Positions 945-6,467 of a stretch of 64,000 nucleotides of DNA are shown here, piece by piece. Source of the DNA: Idiomarinaceae bacterium HL-53 (GTDB taxonomy: Bacteria; Pseudomonadota; Gammaproteobacteria; Enterobacterales; Alteromonadaceae). A program made the position numbers and the translations under genes. Below the pieces are notes generated by a model. That model saw only the letters and a program-made list of their open reading frames with translations, did no database searches and was not told where the DNA came from. How positions within the stretch are numbered: the first letter of the stretch is position 1; every line of letters begins with the position of its first letter. The DNA lies in contig LN899469.1 in the NCBI GenBank assembly GCA_001458075.1, forward strand, positions 1,152,659-1,216,658, in the 5' to 3' direction.

Positions 945-3062
945 ATGAAATTAAAAACAGCTCTAATTCCATATTTTTCTACACTCATTCTTACTGCGCC
1001 TGTGGCTGCACAAGAAGGCGAAAACGATTCTGACGCAAATGAGAGCATTGAGCGCATCCAAGTGCTCGGTGAGTTTAGAGCAAAGGGAATCGAAGACATT
1101 CCAGCCAGCGTGAGTGTGCTCTCCAAAGAAGATATTGCACAACGCCAAGCCGCTCATATTGAGGACATTCTGGGCATGGCGGCGAATGTCAATATTGCCG
1201 CTGGCGCCTCTCGAGGCCGATTTTTTCAAATCCGTGGTATTGGCGAACGCAGTCAGTTTGTCGATCCAATCAATCCTTCGGTCGGCTTGGTAATTGATGG
1301 GATCAATTATAGTGGTCTCGGTGCTGCAGCAAATACTTTTGACCTGGGGCAGGTTGAAGTTTTTCGGGGTCCGCAGAGCACACGTTTCGGTGCCGACGGC
1401 ATGGCGGGTGTCATTTATTTAACGAGTACTCCCGTGACCGAGTACCGAGATGGAATCTTGGCGGTCGAACGTGGTAACTATGACACATATAGCAGCGGAC
1501 TTGCCGGCACCTGGCGTCACAATGAACAGGCGGCATCACGTATCAGCGTGTATCAGTATGCAAGTGATGGTTTAACTCGTAATATCTTTTTAAATCGCGA
1601 CGATACGCAAGCTCAAGACGAGACCGTGGTGCGCGTAAACACAGATTGGCAGTTGAATAAAGATTGGGCGGGTGTCGTCACTCTGCATCACTTCGACGTC
1701 GATAATGGTTATGACGCGTTTTCATTAGATCTCACTCGAGAAACTTTATCGGACACACCGGGTGTTGACCAGTTACAGAGCACAGCGGGTCGTGTGCGCG
1801 TAAATTATTCTGGTTTTTCTAACTTTGAAACCGAGTTAAGCGTCTCTTTGCTAACCGCTGATGAGCTTTATGCGTTCGATGAAGATTGGGCATTCGAAGG
1901 GATACGCCCAGATTGGGAATACAACTCGTATGATGAATACGCGCGGGAGCGCCGCCAAGGGGAGTTTGAAGTTCGTCTTCTCTCGAATACCCCGCTTGCG
2001 TTCGGGAGCCGAACTATAAATTGGCTTGCTGGCGCTTATTTTCAATCTCGTGAGGCGAAGTTGACTCGTAACTATACTTATTTAGCGGCGCCTTTCTCGA
2101 GTAAATATGATACTGAGCACGCGGCCATTTATGGAGAGCTCGATTCACGGTTAAGTGAGCGTTTGAACGCAACTTTAGGGTTCAGATATGAAACTTACAG
2201 TAACGATTACTCAGATAGCCGCGGGATCGTAGCCGCGCCTGATGCAAGTGCATGGGGCGGTAGAGGCTCGTTAGAATATCGCCACGGCGATACGTTGAGC
2301 TCATTTGTATCGCTCGCGCGCGGTTTCAAGTCAGGCGGCGTGAATGGCGAGGCTTTAGGCCGAGTTGAAGATGAGAATTTAGCTGAGTTTCGTAGTTTTC
2401 TAGAGACTAAAGCTGAGTATAAGCCCGAATATCTCACGTCTTTTGAAGTTGGAACTCGTTATTTTTCTCCTGCAAAAAGCATACGTGCTGAGTTAATTGG
2501 GTTCTATAGTTGGCGCGACGATATGCAAGTGAACGCTTATGTGGAGAGAAGCGCAGTATTTGTAACTTATCGCGACAATGCAGCCTCGGGAGTTAATTAC
2601 GGGTTGGAAGGAAATTTAGAGTGGGTGCCAACACAAGCGCTTCGCGTTTTTGCCAGTGCGGGATGGTTGCAAACAGAATTTGACGATTTGTTGTTGCAAG
2701 ACGGTACCAACCTGCGAGGAAGAGAGCAGGCCCATGCGCCAGCGTTTAATTTGCATGGCGGCTTCGAGTGGCAAATATCTCAGGCTCTGTCTTGGCGGTT
2801 TGAAATCGATGCAAAAGACGCATTCTACTATTCAAATACCCATGATGAGCGCAGTGAAGCCTATGAACTGCTGCACACTCGATTCAATTACGATTGGGGT
2901 CAGTGGCGTTTTAGCCTCTACGTGCGTAACTTACTGGATACCGATTACACAACCAGGGGTTTCTATTTTGGGAACGATCCCCGTGATGATTACACACCGA
3001 AGAACTATGTTCAATATGGAGAACCTCGACGCGTGGGCGCGAGTGTTCAGCTCTTATTCTGA
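945..3062 (+). CDS. TonB-dependent outer-membrane receptor, probably for thiamine
   Basis: A 705-residue receptor with a signal peptide ending near APVAAQ, a TonB-box-like ERIQVLG near residue 36, a plug domain with IRGIGERSQF and VEVFRGPQSTRFG motifs, and a 22-strand-type barrel ending in VQLLF with a terminal Phe. It should carry a scarce substrate across the outer membrane using TonB energy. The substrate is inferred from the TPP riboswitch directly upstream and the thiamine-type genes downstream; such riboswitch-linked receptors have been described as thiamine receptors in Alteromonadales. It is the first gene of a tight four-gene operon, 11 bases ahead of the next start. Confidence 0.88.
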   Translation: MKLKTALIPYFSTLILTAPVAAQEGENDSDANESIERIQVLGEFRAKGIEDIPASVSVLSKEDIAQRQAAHIEDILGMAANVNIAAGASRGRFFQIRGIGERSQFVDPINPSVGLVIDGINYSGLGAAANTFDLGQVEVFRGPQSTRFGADGMAGVIYLTSTPVTEYRDGILAVERGNYDTYSSGLAGTWRHNEQAASRISVYQYASDGLTRNIFLNRDDTQAQDETVVRVNTDWQLNKDWAGVVTLHHFDVDNGYDAFSLDLTRETLSDTPGVDQLQSTAGRVRVNYSGFSNFETELSVSLLTADELYAFDEDWAFEGIRPDWEYNSYDEYARERRQGEFEVRLLSNTPLAFGSRTINWLAGAYFQSREAKLTRNYTYLAAPFSSKYDTEHAAIYGELDSRLSERLNATLGFRYETYSNDYSDSRGIVAAPDASAWGGRGSLEYRHGDTLSSFVSLARGFKSGGVNGEALGRVEDENLAEFRSFLETKAEYKPEYLTSFEVGTRYFSPAKSIRAELIGFYSWRDDMQVNAYVERSAVFVTYRDNAASGVNYGLEGNLEWVPTQALRVFASAGWLQTEFDDLLLQDGTNLRGREQAHAPAFNLHGGFEWQISQALSWRFEIDAKDAFYYSNTHDERSEAYELLHTRFNYDWGQWRFSLYVRNLLDTDYTTRGFYFGNDPRDDYTPKNYVQYGEPRRVGASVQLLF

Positions 3063-3073
3063 GGAGTGAAGTG

Positions 3074-3325
3074 ATGATTATTTCTGCCGAGCTTTCGCTT
3101 TACCCACTGGCGAATGAAGCATATCGTGACGTTATTCTCTCGTTTATTGAGAGACTCAATAAGTACGAAGGCTTAGAGATCCATACCAATAGCATGAGTA
3201 CGCAGATATTTGGTGATTATCACCAGGTGATGACTGCAATTTCACGGGAGCTCGAAGTGGTTTATCAAGAAGTGCCACCACACGTTCTTGTGTGTAAATT
3301 CATCAACAAAGATTTACGCCCATGA
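3074..3325 (+). CDS. YkoF-like thiamine/HMP-binding protein
   Basis: An 83-residue single-domain protein matching the YkoF/MTH1187 family: an ISAELSLYPL start and the TNSMSTQIFGDY block typical of these ferredoxin-like thiamine/hydroxymethylpyrimidine binders. Bacillus YkoF has two such domains; this one has a single copy. No signal peptide is seen, so it is probably cytoplasmic and may bind the vitamin as it leaves the permease. AGGAG at 3062-3066 favours the ATG at 3074 over the GTG at 3071. Its TGA overlaps the ATG of the permease gene (ATGA). Confidence 0.8.
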   Translation: MIISAELSLYPLANEAYRDVILSFIERLNKYEGLEIHTNSMSTQIFGDYHQVMTAISRELEVVYQEVPPHVLVCKFINKDLRP

Positions 3326-3924
3326 CGGAGATAATGAGGAGCCTGTTGAGCTTTGAAACGCTTGCCGTAGTGTTAGCGCTCACTTACGTTTGGCTTGCCA
3401 TTCGGCAAAGCATTTGGTGTTGGCCAGCCGCCGCACTGAGCGCTTCAATTTACGCGGTTTTGTTTCTTGAAGGTCGCTTACTCATGGAAGCGGGCTTGCA
3501 AGTATTCTACGTGTTCATGGCAGGTTACGGCATGTGGCAATGGCGTTTTGCCGGTACTAATGCTCAGACACTCACCATTTCAAGTAAGCCGTTAGGCTGG
3601 CATGCTGGCTTCATATTCGGCATTTTGCTGGTAAGTGCAATGGCTGCATGGTTGTTAGCTACGTTCACACAAGCTGAAGCGGTCGTGCTAGACTCATTAA
3701 CAACAATTGCTAGCTTAGCCGTAACTTGGATGGTGGCAAAGAAGCTAGTAGAAAATTGGTGGTATTGGGTTGTGATTGATGCCGTGTACGTCTATCTATT
3801 TGCTTCGAAGGGTTACTGGCTTACGTCATGCTTGTACGCGCTATTCTTAATTATGGCAATTTATGGCTATAAAACTTGGAGGTTGGAAATGACAAGGATG
3901 CAAGCTCAGGGAGCGAGTAAGTGA
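3322..3924 (+). CDS. pnuT: PnuC-family permease, probably thiamine transporter PnuT
   Basis: A 200-residue membrane protein with about seven hydrophobic segments. It carries the PnuC-family signatures QVFYVFMAGYGMWQW (about residues 59-73) and ENWWYWVVIDAVYVYLF (about 141-157). PnuC-type carriers use facilitated diffusion and rely on phosphorylation of the cargo inside the cell; the thiamine-specific branch is called PnuT and is commonly found behind TPP riboswitches. Specificity is therefore inferred from context. The gene overlaps the one before by 4 bases and the kinase-like gene after it by 4 bases. Confidence 0.85.
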   Translation: MTEIMRSLLSFETLAVVLALTYVWLAIRQSIWCWPAAALSASIYAVLFLEGRLLMEAGLQVFYVFMAGYGMWQWRFAGTNAQTLTISSKPLGWHAGFIFGILLVSAMAAWLLATFTQAEAVVLDSLTTIASLAVTWMVAKKLVENWWYWVVIDAVYVYLFASKGYWLTSCLYALFLIMAIYGYKTWRLEMTRMQAQGASK

Positions 3925-4721
3925 TGATTGCGCACAGGTTCCCCGAAACGTTGCTTGCAGAACTTCCGGGAAACGGCCCTTGGCATATTGAACCCGTGGG
4001 TGAGCAGCTTGCGAATCGAACTTGGTTGGTGCGCTCGGCCGAATACCAATTCTTTGCTAAGCAGTTTCGTTACGAAGAGGTGTTTGCAAGGGACCTACAG
4101 CAGGTGCTAGCACTGGAGTATTATGTTGCGGAACAGCACTTAGGGCCTGAAATTATTTATGTAGACACCCAACATAAAATTGTGGTGTACGAGCATTTGC
4201 CCAACTCAATCCATGAGTTAGTTACAGAGCATGAAACGAAACTGCGAATACTTGCAAGAGCGGTGGCGGGGATTCACAGACTAGCGCCTCGTGTGAGCCA
4301 ATGGTCGTTACGAGATCGCTTGTATACCTATTGTGATTCGCTAACTGAAACTCATCCCGTAATCGCAAGCAACTTGCGGCGAGATTTGAAAGATTACAGC
4401 CATCTTCTCTCGCATTGGGAAGCTGGGCCTCAGGTATTCTGTCATCTCGATCTCAGTATGGACCATCTATTTTTAAATCCCCACCTTAGAATTATCGATT
4501 GGGAGTATGCTGGCTATTCGCACCCAGCATTCGACGTTGCCATGACTGTGGTCATGAATGATTTGTTCGAGGATGAAATCGAAGTTTTTCTAGAAGAGTT
4601 CAACAATCATGCCCCCTTTCAAGTAACACGTGACGAACTGCCAGACTGGATTCGACTTGTGGCATTGGTGAATCGCATCTGGTTTAAAGTACAAGAAAAT
4701 CTGCAAAAAGAAGCCGTCTAG
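3921..4721 (+). CDS. Thiamine kinase-like phosphotransferase
   Basis: A 266-residue protein of the choline-kinase/aminoglycoside-phosphotransferase fold, similar in layout to E. coli ThiK (YcfN). The catalytic loop reads CHLDLSMDHLF and the metal site reads IIDWEYAGYSHP. Its likely job is to phosphorylate imported thiamine and so trap it. One oddity: the Asn of the usual HxDxxxxN loop appears as His. The GTG at 3921 has GGGAG seven bases upstream and overlaps pnuT; the ATG at 3924 is the alternative start. The stop codon lies in the loop of a terminator hairpin. Confidence 0.75.
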   Translation: MMIAHRFPETLLAELPGNGPWHIEPVGEQLANRTWLVRSAEYQFFAKQFRYEEVFARDLQQVLALEYYVAEQHLGPEIIYVDTQHKIVVYEHLPNSIHELVTEHETKLRILARAVAGIHRLAPRVSQWSLRDRLYTYCDSLTETHPVIASNLRRDLKDYSHLLSHWEAGPQVFCHLDLSMDHLFLNPHLRIIDWEYAGYSHPAFDVAMTVVMNDLFEDEIEVFLEEFNNHAPFQVTRDELPDWIRLVALVNRIWFKVQENLQKEAV

Positions 4722-4733
4722 AACGGCTTCTTT
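4707..4733. terminator. Bidirectional terminator between thiamine operon and flagellin genes
   Basis: A perfect 11-bp stem, AAAGAAGCCGT with ACGGCTTCTTT, around a CTAGA loop. The A-run on one side and T-run on the other suit termination in both directions, as expected between converging genes. The kinase TAG stop sits partly in the loop. Confidence 0.8.
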
Positions 4734-4746
4734 CACAGAGGGCGGA

Positions 4747-5553
4747 TTAACCGCCCAATACGGAGAGTACCTGCTCGTTGCGCGCGTTAGCTTGGCTTTG
4801 AACCGAGATGGCAGCGCTCTGCTGAATTTGCCCTTGAATGTTCTCCGCAGTGCCCATCGCATAATCCAAATCTTGCATACGCGAGCGAGCTTCCTGCATA
4901 TTTGTATCAGTATTCATTAGATTGCGAGCGGCTGACTCGAACTGATTTTGTGTGGCCCCAAATTCTGCACGTTGTGAAGAGATGGTGTCGCGCAAGTTAT
5001 CAAGCTCGCCCAATAAGTTGTCTCGTGAATCGGCATCTGTGAGGTCGATATTCTCCAGCGCAGAGAGCCCTTGCTCACGAAAATCAACCAAGTTCACTGA
5101 AATAGACTCACCGGCACTACTGCCAACTAAGAACTCCTCTGAAGCGTTAGATGTGAGCAGCGGTTTACCTGCGAATTCCGTGCGCTCCAGCGTTTGATCA
5201 ATGTTGCCACGCAACTGTTCAATTTCGCTTTGCAACGCTTGGCGGTCAGAATCTGCCAATGCGCCATTCCCTGCTTGAATAGTCAGCTCTCGAATACGAT
5301 TGACATCGTTGCCAACGCTTTCTAAGCCACCTTCTGCAACTTGCAGCATTGAAATACCGTCGTAAGCGTTACCAACCGAGCGTTGATACGCGTTGCTTTC
5401 GGCAGTCAGTTGTTCAATAATTTGCATGGCCGCGGCGTCGTCGGAAGCGCGCTCTACCCGCTTCCCAGATGCTAATTGACGCATGCGATCGGTTTGTTTC
5501 TCTTGAATTTGCTGAAGCAAACTCTGTGTGTTTTGCGTATTTTCAATTTTCAT
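4747..5553 (-). CDS. Divergent flagellin
   Basis: A 268-residue protein with both conserved flagellin ends. The N-terminal D0/D1 helices carry QLASGKRVERASDDAA (about residues 26-41) and later IRELTIQAGNGAL; the C-terminal helix ends SVQSQANARNEQVLSVLGG. The variable outer domain is nearly absent. The start differs from ordinary flagellins, which open with an INTN-type peptide and an RLSSG motif. No signal peptide is present, as expected for export by the flagellar type III system. No flagellar assembly genes are nearby. A second flagellin-like gene lies 42 bases upstream on the same strand, so the two are probably cotranscribed. Confidence 0.85.
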   Translation of the reverse strand: MKIENTQNTQSLLQQIQEKQTDRMRQLASGKRVERASDDAAAMQIIEQLTAESNAYQRSVGNAYDGISMLQVAEGGLESVGNDVNRIRELTIQAGNGALADSDRQALQSEIEQLRGNIDQTLERTEFAGKPLLTSNASEEFLVGSSAGESISVNLVDFREQGLSALENIDLTDADSRDNLLGELDNLRDTISSQRAEFGATQNQFESAARNLMNTDTNMQEARSRMQDLDYAMGTAENIQGQIQQSAAISVQSQANARNEQVLSVLGG

Positions 5554-5595
5554 AGACTCCCCCTACAGAGTCAGTGGTATGCCCAAACAACAGAA

Positions 5596-6357
5596 TTAGG
5601 TGAGTAAACTCACTGCAAACGCTTGCGAGATGTTCGCTTGCGACTGCGTCACAAAGGCCCCACTTTGTGATATCTGTTGTTGAATTTCTTGCGCCCGCGT
5701 GGTCGCTTCCTCAATACTAGAAAGCTGCTGTCTCGCACGGTCTATTTCGTCTGTGTCGTTACGTATTGTATCGGCACTCGACAAAGATTCTTCTCTATTT
5801 TCGACAAATTCGTTCCGTTGATTTTGCGCCGTTTCTTCAAATTGTGCAAACTGGTCTGCTGCTGCCGATAAAGACTCAGGATCATCGAAGTCGACTTCGT
5901 TTAAAAACGAAGCTTGACTCTGTAATTCCTGGAACGAAGCGCGAATTGAGTTTTGCGTGTCGCTTTCGTTTTGACCACTGCGTTCTGTTAACGAACCAAA
6001 GCGTTCGTTAAGTTCATCGCGCTGTGTGTTGAATTGGCTTTGAAGCTCGGCTCTTTCTTCTGGTGCGAGGCTTTCATTGCTCGCAGCGGAGGCCAGATCG
6101 CGAAGTGAGCCCATGCGCTCTTGAAGATCTTCATTCGCGAACGCCGCGCTTCCCGATTCAATCGCATTACTGCGTGCTTCTGTGTACTGACGGTTATTTT
6201 CGGATACAAGTGACCCGAGGCGCTCGGTCGCGAGTTCGAGCCCTGGATTTGTCAGCGAGGTACTTAGTTCGTTATCGTTAGCACTTGGATTGACCAAATT
6301 GCGATTATTAACGAACTGTACAAAGCCGCTAAACATGTCGTAGTTTGTCACTTGCAT
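5596..6357 (-). CDS. Flagellin-like protein with altered N-terminus
   Basis: A 253-residue Gln/Ser/Glu-rich, mostly helical protein. Its C-terminal helix (QSGAFVTQSQANISQAF, about residues 231-247) aligns with the same region of the flagellin next door (QSAAISVQSQANARNEQ). The stretch MGSLRDLASAASNESL followed by RAELQSQ mirrors the D1 helix of the neighbour. The first 50 residues do not carry the flagellin D0 signature. It may be a minor filament subunit, a filament-associated protein or a partner of the adjacent flagellin. A GGGAGG ribosome site precedes the ATG. No clear sigma-28 promoter was found upstream. Confidence 0.65.
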   Translation of the reverse strand: MQVTNYDMFSGFVQFVNNRNLVNPSANDNELSTSLTNPGLELATERLGSLVSENNRQYTEARSNAIESGSAAFANEDLQERMGSLRDLASAASNESLAPEERAELQSQFNTQRDELNERFGSLTERSGQNESDTQNSIRASFQELQSQASFLNEVDFDDPESLSAAADQFAQFEETAQNQRNEFVENREESLSSADTIRNDTDEIDRARQQLSSIEEATTRAQEIQQQISQSGAFVTQSQANISQAFAVSLLT

Positions 6358-6467
6358 AAACGCCTCCCGCGAATGAATGGCGTACCCTTAAGTATACGAA
6401 AAAAATTGCAATTGAACAAATTTTGTACGTCTAGCTAAGCACCTCATACACAAAGGAAAATGTTTCC

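Follow-up and report, generated by a model that had tools for sequence, protein, structure and literature searches.

The minus-strand gene pair at positions 4747–6357 encodes P0001, a short flagellin paralogue of a separate lineage, and P0002, a fast-evolving tandem duplicate of P0001 whose front end was replaced. The duplicate origin of P0002 is well supported. By analogy, we tentatively prefer the explanation that P0001 and P0002 form a secreted, non-filament pair of flagellin homologues, comparable to FlaE/FlaF of Vibrio or FlaC of Campylobacter; export, pairing and function would all follow from that comparison. The window, i.e. the whole stretch of DNA analysed, comprises 64,000 nt (contig LN899469.1, positions 1,152,659–1,216,658, assembly GCA_001458075.1). 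The following features are referred to throughout:

4747..5553, minus strand: P0001, 268 aa, short flagellin paralogue (D0–D1 only) from a separate lineage; lies second in the pair
5596..6357, minus strand: P0002, 253 aa, arose from P0001 by tandem duplication and has diverged; lies first in the pair
5596..5697, minus strand: C-terminal D0 part of P0002 (residues 221–253 and the stop codon); 32/33 residues identical in Aliidiomarina sp. B3213
6202..6357, minus strand: codons 1–52 of P0002, replaced N-terminal region; 42/52 residues identical in B3213
6391..6419, minus strand: candidate promoter TTGTTC-N17-TATACT, recognised by eye; its −10-like box lies 34–39 nt upstream of the P0002 start

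The two ORFs are intact, are read in the order P0002 to P0001, and are separated by 42 bp; a purine-rich leader stands ahead of the ATG in both. The divergent flagellin-like pair that the sequence-only reading had pointed out is real. It is surrounded by genes for a TonB receptor, the NMN transporter PnuC, an APH-type kinase, an MFS protein, the rhodanese-type TrhO, and a ferritin-like protein, which in this genus is a house-keeping neighbourhood. Among the window ORFs of at least 100 aa, read by eye, there was no other flagellar gene, including those for export, hook, and motor. In this genome (2.74 Mb, one contig), three filament flagellins (fla1–3) and FlgL are encoded at G000:C1:127–135 kb, together with the hook genes (about 127–143 kb), and flrABC-fliEFG... 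at 1.44 Mb, while the window spans 1.153–1.217 Mb; these gene names were assigned by eye, except for the Flagellin_N and FleQ matches. The distance from P0001 to fla1–3 is about 1.03 Mb. The pair thus lies away from flagellar genes, as had been claimed, and the proposal that it begins a separate appendage with its own machinery found no support, as no export, hook, or motor gene was seen in the window.

Two further observations concern the DNA around these loci. An inverted repeat at 4707–4733, between the end of the kinase gene and the end of P0001, looks by eye like a possible two-way terminator and is absent from the listing of the generic scan that was also used for promoters. Between fla1 and fla2 (G000:C1:128207–130242), a flagellin C-terminal fragment of 104 aa lies by an IS200/IS605-type element with TnpB-like and Y1 transposase genes; the fragment is possibly a fourth flagellin gene broken by that element.

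P0001 passed both Pfam flagellin models, Flagellin_N with 7.9e-30 (104.2 bits, gathering score 26.6) and Flagellin_C with 2.6e-13 (50.5 bits, gathering score 23). It stayed under the curated cut-off of every NCBIfam model among the 25 matches listed (best 165.1 vs 332), and its score against the FlgL model, 90.7, was below the cut-off of 127.2. The structure model (mean pLDDT 69.9, from an alignment of two rows) consists of helices 2–29, 36–95, and 101–127, a β-hairpin at 138–154, and a helix at 174–267, and the predicted fold is that of a classic D0–D1 flagellin. Its best structural match was the filament flagellin of S. oneidensis, 9lah (Z 17.1, 227 residues aligned). That P0001 has almost no outer domain, as the sequence-only reading stressed, is true but does not distinguish it: the filament flagellins of this genome have only 272, 272, and 275 aa, so the small size is not special here. 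The odd N-terminus is a genuine peculiarity. In the 22 rows of the P0001 lineage, 24–29 residues (mostly 25–27) precede the L[AS]SG-type motif, with 25–29 in the ten rows of the genus and 24–28 in the twelve of family relatives, compared to 29–31 (mostly 31) in 29 other flagellins. Judged from these alignments, the N-terminal segment of P0001 is about 5 residues shorter than in other flagellins.

P0001 is 42–44% identical to the filament flagellins of its own genome. In a tree of 55 rows, the P0001 group of the genus (ten rows, support 100/98) formed one clade with twelve short flagellins of the family (97/96). This clade stood apart from the included filament flagellins, fla1–3 among them, and P0001 fell outside the filament-flagellin clade of the genus. 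Three FlgL rows made up a clade of their own (100/100), far from P0001. A profile built on the 22 lineage rows was searched in 157 family genomes drawn evenly, and 52 of them, including 12 that had supplied rows of the profile itself, contained exactly one match of at least 299 bits each. All remaining matches listed scored 283 bits or less; the few genomes at 270–283 bits may carry diverged members of the lineage. P0001 is the local copy of this single-copy, non-canonical short flagellin lineage of the family. Within the genus, an orthologue (at least 48% identity) is present in 9/17 genomes, counting the studied one, and in 9/9 cases it occurs where other flagellins exist; the best P0001 matches in the other eight genomes are other flagellins at 36–43%. 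Our literature search, with most subscription journals outside its scope, found no published description of the P0001 lineage or of the P0001–P0002 pair. We also observed that in five genus genomes with no P0001 orthologue (G295, G296, G297, G302, and G304) the flagellins (MSVINTNMTSLIGQQNL...) belong to a clade other than that of the studied genome, which suggests flagellin replacement in part of the genus.

The short flagellin directly adjoins flrA in 10/12 family loci and is one gene off in G183; in G172, flrA was not within 1.5 kb of it. The flrA assignment was confirmed by FleQ and sigma-54 domains at one of these loci (G214). The gene order at that locus is filament flagellins, fliD, fliS, pse-type and other glycosylation genes, short flagellin, flrA, flrB, flrC, and fliE, named by eye apart from the confirmed FlrA domains. 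In most family relatives examined, the short flagellin sits at the end of a flagellin-glycosylation island. In the genus, P0001 lies beside the pnuC–kinase pair in 8/8 relatives that carry it, and also in Aliidiomarina sp. B3213 (by eye), and no short flagellin adjoins flrA of the studied genome. The common pnuC–kinase site and the flrA gene without its neighbour imply that flrA and the short flagellin parted before these species split.

P0002 gave no Flagellin_N or Flagellin_C match in Pfam, even at E 10, and its B3213 orthologue reached 16.5 bits with Flagellin_N, below the 26.6 cut-off. The NCBIfam matches of P0002 were Rad50 and SMC and were discarded as coiled-coil noise. A single BLASTP comparison aligned P0002 to P0001 with 27% identity over 181 aa, reaching both C-termini (E 2e-5), and P0001 was also the best non-self match of P0002 within its own genome (E 3e-6). 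A profile made from P0002 and the B3213 orthologue was compared with that of the P0001 family, which yielded a probability of 95% over 207 columns (P0002 residues 42–252) and a score of 60.5, whereas the maximum was 19.5 in 60 column shuffles and 20.7 in 60 block shuffles; against filament flagellins (28 rows), the score was 25.4. When 196 proteins, taken from ten stretches, were pooled, those ranked next to P0002 itself were P0001 (60.6), P0001 of G306 (47.1), fla1 (31.7), the protein in the P0002 slot of G306 (30.9), and seven more flagellins (29.8–24.2), followed by the first unrelated protein at 21.9; fla2 of G214 (19.7) and fla3 (18.0) ranked below it. P0002 is collinear with P0001 from residue ~42 to the C-terminus, and its first ~40 residues bear no flagellin signature. 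The sequence-only reading had thus correctly described a protein that shares with P0001 the C-terminal D0 and a portion of D1 and has lost the N-terminal D0 signature, except that the common part covers nearly all of D1.

The homology of P0002 to flagellins rests on the profile comparison and on the structure model. The AlphaFold model (mean pLDDT 79.4) was computed from two P0002 rows with no flagellin in the alignment. It contains helices 38–92, 99–126, 133–154, and 160–252, a low-confidence helix at 5–21, and pLDDT < 50 over residues 1–36. In comparison with P0001, the N-terminal D0 helix is lost in favour of that short helix and a loop, and a helix takes the place of the D1 β-hairpin. Foldseek gave no match to the PDB at E ≤ 0.001; designed helical bundles came at the top, and flagellins appeared at ranks 40 and 50 among the best 50 matches. 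With a second structural aligner, the best match was again 9lah from S. oneidensis (Z 14.9, 212 residues, P0002 34–253 on chain residues 41–271), a value just over the aligner's caution level of about 13 for this all-helical model. A designed bundle tied with it (Z 14.7) but over 112 residues only, and 17 of the best 20 matches were flagellins or a flagellin-type hook-associated protein. The C-terminal 50 residues of P0002 matched P0001 of G306 (z 9.3) and P0001 of its own genome (z 9.1) better than fla1–3 (z 4.0–5.1); the other lineage members gave z 2.2–8.5, overlapping the filament flagellins (up to 6.2). The match to its own P0001 would suit pairing and, equally, plain common descent. A heterotypic partnership, as had been proposed from the sequence, is consistent with this match, with the adjacent same-strand genes, and with the retention of both in B3213. 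A cap or junction subunit, proposed along with it, gained no positive evidence: FlgL forms its own clade, and P0002 matched no hook-associated family in Pfam or NCBIfam.

Regulation of the pair was assessed by a simple consensus scan for FliA-type (sigma-28) boxes, run with no shuffled control. The scores were 19–21 for fla1–3 and 14 for the region upstream of the pair, and a filament flagellin can score as low as 17 (fla2 of G214). Nine other leaders of the genus reached at most 16, or 17 when P0001 of G306, which is behind the slot ORF, is counted. A match scoring 18 ahead of P0001 falls within the P0002 coding region, where the best score in B3213 is 13, and was taken as chance. Boxes scoring 18–20 were present at 3/12 family orthologues (G090, G282, and G224), so independence from FliA does not hold throughout the P0001 lineage. 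The candidate promoter TTGTTC-N17-TATACT has an equivalent in B3213, TTGTCC-17-TATACT (by eye); it is a weak lead, as the generic sigma-70 scan (9 of 12 positions needed) did not list it. Its −10 box was also read as sigma-S-like (CTATACTTAA). Across the 22 lineage leaders, this motif scored 9–10/10 in the studied genome, G306, and G301 and 6–8 elsewhere, and the reading was dropped.

A close known parallel is the flagellin set of V. vulnificus (PMC6692518). Its FlaE and FlaF are flagellin homologues beyond those that the filament needs; they are exported through FlhA, act in the biofilm matrix, and show self-binding and mutual binding but no binding to FlaB, FlgL, or FliD. P0001 and P0002 are likewise additional to a filament set, with three filament-type flagellins and FlgL encoded elsewhere; the parallel is drawn from descriptions and not from orthology. 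The six V. vulnificus flagellins have one size (about 40 kDa) and are 53–75% mutually identical (PMC6692518), whereas P0001 shares only 42–44% with the filament flagellins of its own genome, and P0002 is devoid of the N-terminal flagellin region. FlaC of Campylobacter jejuni is presented as a short flagellin largely without D2/D3, more than 90% secreted and dispensable for motility, with a genomic context that differs among species and a proposed function that concerns animal hosts (PMC4863622). Compared by description, with no FlaC sequence, P0001 resembles it in having D0–D1 only and in being encoded away from the filament flagellins; the part of that source available mentions no diverged tandem partner (PMC4863622). 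FlaA and FlaB of S. oneidensis are filament subunits of < 300 aa encoded in the flagellar cluster (PMC3120886). P0001 and P0002 are of the same < 300-aa type, and the S. oneidensis filament 9lah was the best structural match of both models, but the P0001 clade is apart from the filament flagellins of the family in a tree that has no named Shewanella row. FlgL shares the flagellin-type D0–D1 architecture with P0001, which nevertheless lies outside the FlgL clade and under the cut-off of the FlgL model.

The pair fits the FlaE/FlaF and FlaC pattern because it is extra to the filament set, belongs to a separate lineage, has altered D0 ends and no FliA box that we could find, and because P0001 occurs in the genus only alongside other flagellins. 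P0001 was duplicated in tandem in a common ancestor of two or three species, and the upstream copy became P0002, which retained the coiled-coil of D1 and the D0 helix at the C-terminus while its N-terminal D0 segment and D1 β-hairpin were replaced. We propose that P0001 and P0002 are produced together, presumably from one transcript, and independently of the FliA programme that controls the filament. The ordinary flagellar export apparatus would carry P0001, and probably also P0002, out of the cell; the altered D0 ends would keep both out of the filament, and the two may associate outside the cell in the manner of Vibrio FlaE/FlaF, e.g. in the biofilm matrix. Several findings speak against this explanation. 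P0001 is still recognised by both flagellin models of Pfam and might be built into the filament in minor amounts, and the N-terminus of P0002 has no recognisable flagellin export region. FliA-like boxes occur in part of the lineage, and P0002 is found in very few species, evolves faster than P0001, and may owe some of its end conservation to the DNA level or to recombination.

An alternative that we consider unlikely, yet the strongest of the rivals, is that P0001 and P0002 are minor filament, junction, or tip subunits at a special hook-proximal or distal place in the polar flagellum, with P0002 docking only via its C-terminal D0 and D1. Both proteins retain these parts, the C-terminal D0 of P0002 hardly differs between the studied genome and B3213, and polar flagellates are described as usually having multiple flagellins (PMC3120886). 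The separate lineage of P0001 and the failure to find a FliA box at the pair do not agree with such a role, and neither do the shortened N-terminal D0 of P0001, the replaced one of P0002, and the D1 hairpin replaced in the P0002 model.

The region by which flagellins are targeted for export lies within their N-terminal signature, and FliS binds the C-terminal D0 of flagellin. P0002, which has no N-terminal signature, has a conserved C-terminal D0, and is encoded adjacent to and upstream of P0001, might accordingly stay inside the cell, where, by its likeness to flagellin, it would bind P0001 (or FliS) via D1 and the C-terminal D0 and act as a chaperone or a brake of P0001. We regard this as rather improbable, somewhat more so than a place in the filament. 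Mere loss of the signature would not explain why the new N-terminus is conserved (42/52), seven other P0001 genes of the genus manage without a partner, and we know of no precedent for a full-length flagellin paralogue acting as a chaperone.

Flagellins usually require both ends for assembly. A bolder form of the secreted-pair reading, to which we give a distinctly small chance, is that P0001 and P0002 make up an obligate extracellular heteropolymer, either an accessory fibre or an element of the matrix, with the new N-terminus of P0002 replacing or capping the flagellin D0 ring. If true, it would reveal a route from a flagellin duplicate to a different extracellular polymer.

The evolution of P0002 was followed by comparison with B3213, the orthologue of which came from a second collection through a pattern search limited to close relatives. 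Both frames are open and 71% identical, with pN 0.219 and pS 0.797; since silent sites are saturated between the two genomes, rates are given as pN and pS rather than dN/dS. The corresponding values (pN/pS) were 0.107/0.868 for P0001, 0.062/0.757 for trhO, 0.254/0.871 for the kinase, 0.268/0.791 for the MFS protein, and 0.281/0.819 for pnuC. From these, P0002 (ratio 0.27) evolves faster than P0001 (0.12) and trhO (0.08) and about like the kinase, MFS, and pnuC genes (0.29–0.34). Identity is lower in the middle, with 39/74 over residues 126–200, while the last 32 residues are identical, a run that was reached in 11/20,000 shuffles. Synonymous differences are also fewer at the P0002 ends (17/40 and 13/32 identical codons) than in the middle, so the end conservation may partly reflect DNA-level constraint or recombination; the DNA identity climbs to 0.82–0.87 over the P0002–P0001 junction. 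On this comparison, P0002 is intact and under protein-level constraint, and is not debris.

By BLAST, P0002 was found in 1/17 genus genomes, the studied one. Among 295 genomes of the order, the search returned this genome and one weak, chance-type match, and among 325 of the family, this genome, the same weak match, and a short flagellin in G487. No match was obtained among the phages and plasmids searched. The weak match, in G172, falls by eye within an ORF of the signal-receiver type, and we discounted it as chance. The G487 protein was not counted, because its link to the P0001 clade is a long branch (1.45, support 93/83). We observed that this 267-aa protein, which P0002 matches weakly, is encoded (G487, locus 2345–5097) directly downstream of a longer flagellin (591 aa) whose middle carries HExxH and looks flagellinolysin-like by eye; Pfam finds only both flagellin ends in it. 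The P0002 slot is empty in G301, G310, G307, G299, G300, G303, and G305, all of which carry P0001. As P0002 is found in very few species, the lineage as such cannot depend on it.

That P0002 is an ordinary duplicate decaying toward loss, with no role, may be suggested by its detection in this genome and B3213 only by BLAST-level searches (with one faint possible relative in G306), its absence beside P0001 in G301, G310, and five more genomes, and its faster evolution than P0001, but this reading is already disfavoured and very improbable, given a reading frame that both species keep open (71% identity, silent sites saturated), a pN/pS no higher than in the kinase, MFS, and pnuC genes, and two conserved termini. 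An ordinary flagellin next to a damaged copy, which the sequence-only reading had named as its own counter-explanation, holds insofar as P0002 is a duplicate not found in most relatives, and fails in that P0002 is intact and constrained and P0001 is not an ordinary filament flagellin.

In G306, the P0002 slot is occupied by an ORF of 252 codons. It scored 30.9 against the P0002 profile, with 60 shuffles at 18.9 or less, although shuffling destroys helix periodicity, which weakens the comparison. Against the P0001 profile it did not rise above shuffles (4/60 reach its score; probability 22–26%). In the P0002 pool it ranks among flagellins, and its reversed sequence is outside the best 22 matches listed. 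The slot ORF may be related to P0002, faintly if at all. Most simply, a single duplication took place in a common ancestor of the studied genome, B3213, and perhaps G306. We must also note the leader GTAGGGGG, which precedes P0001 in the studied genome, B3213, G301, and G310 and, in G306, an internal ATG of the slot ORF (codon 10); this codon may be the true start of the slot ORF, and the leader a trace of the duplication order.

Whichever role P0002 has, a retained duplicate with one end near-unchanged and the other replaced is a natural experiment on which flagellin parts serve export, pairing, and polymerisation. The wider P0001 lineage, present in 52/157 family genomes, provides a testable set of candidate secreted flagellin homologues.
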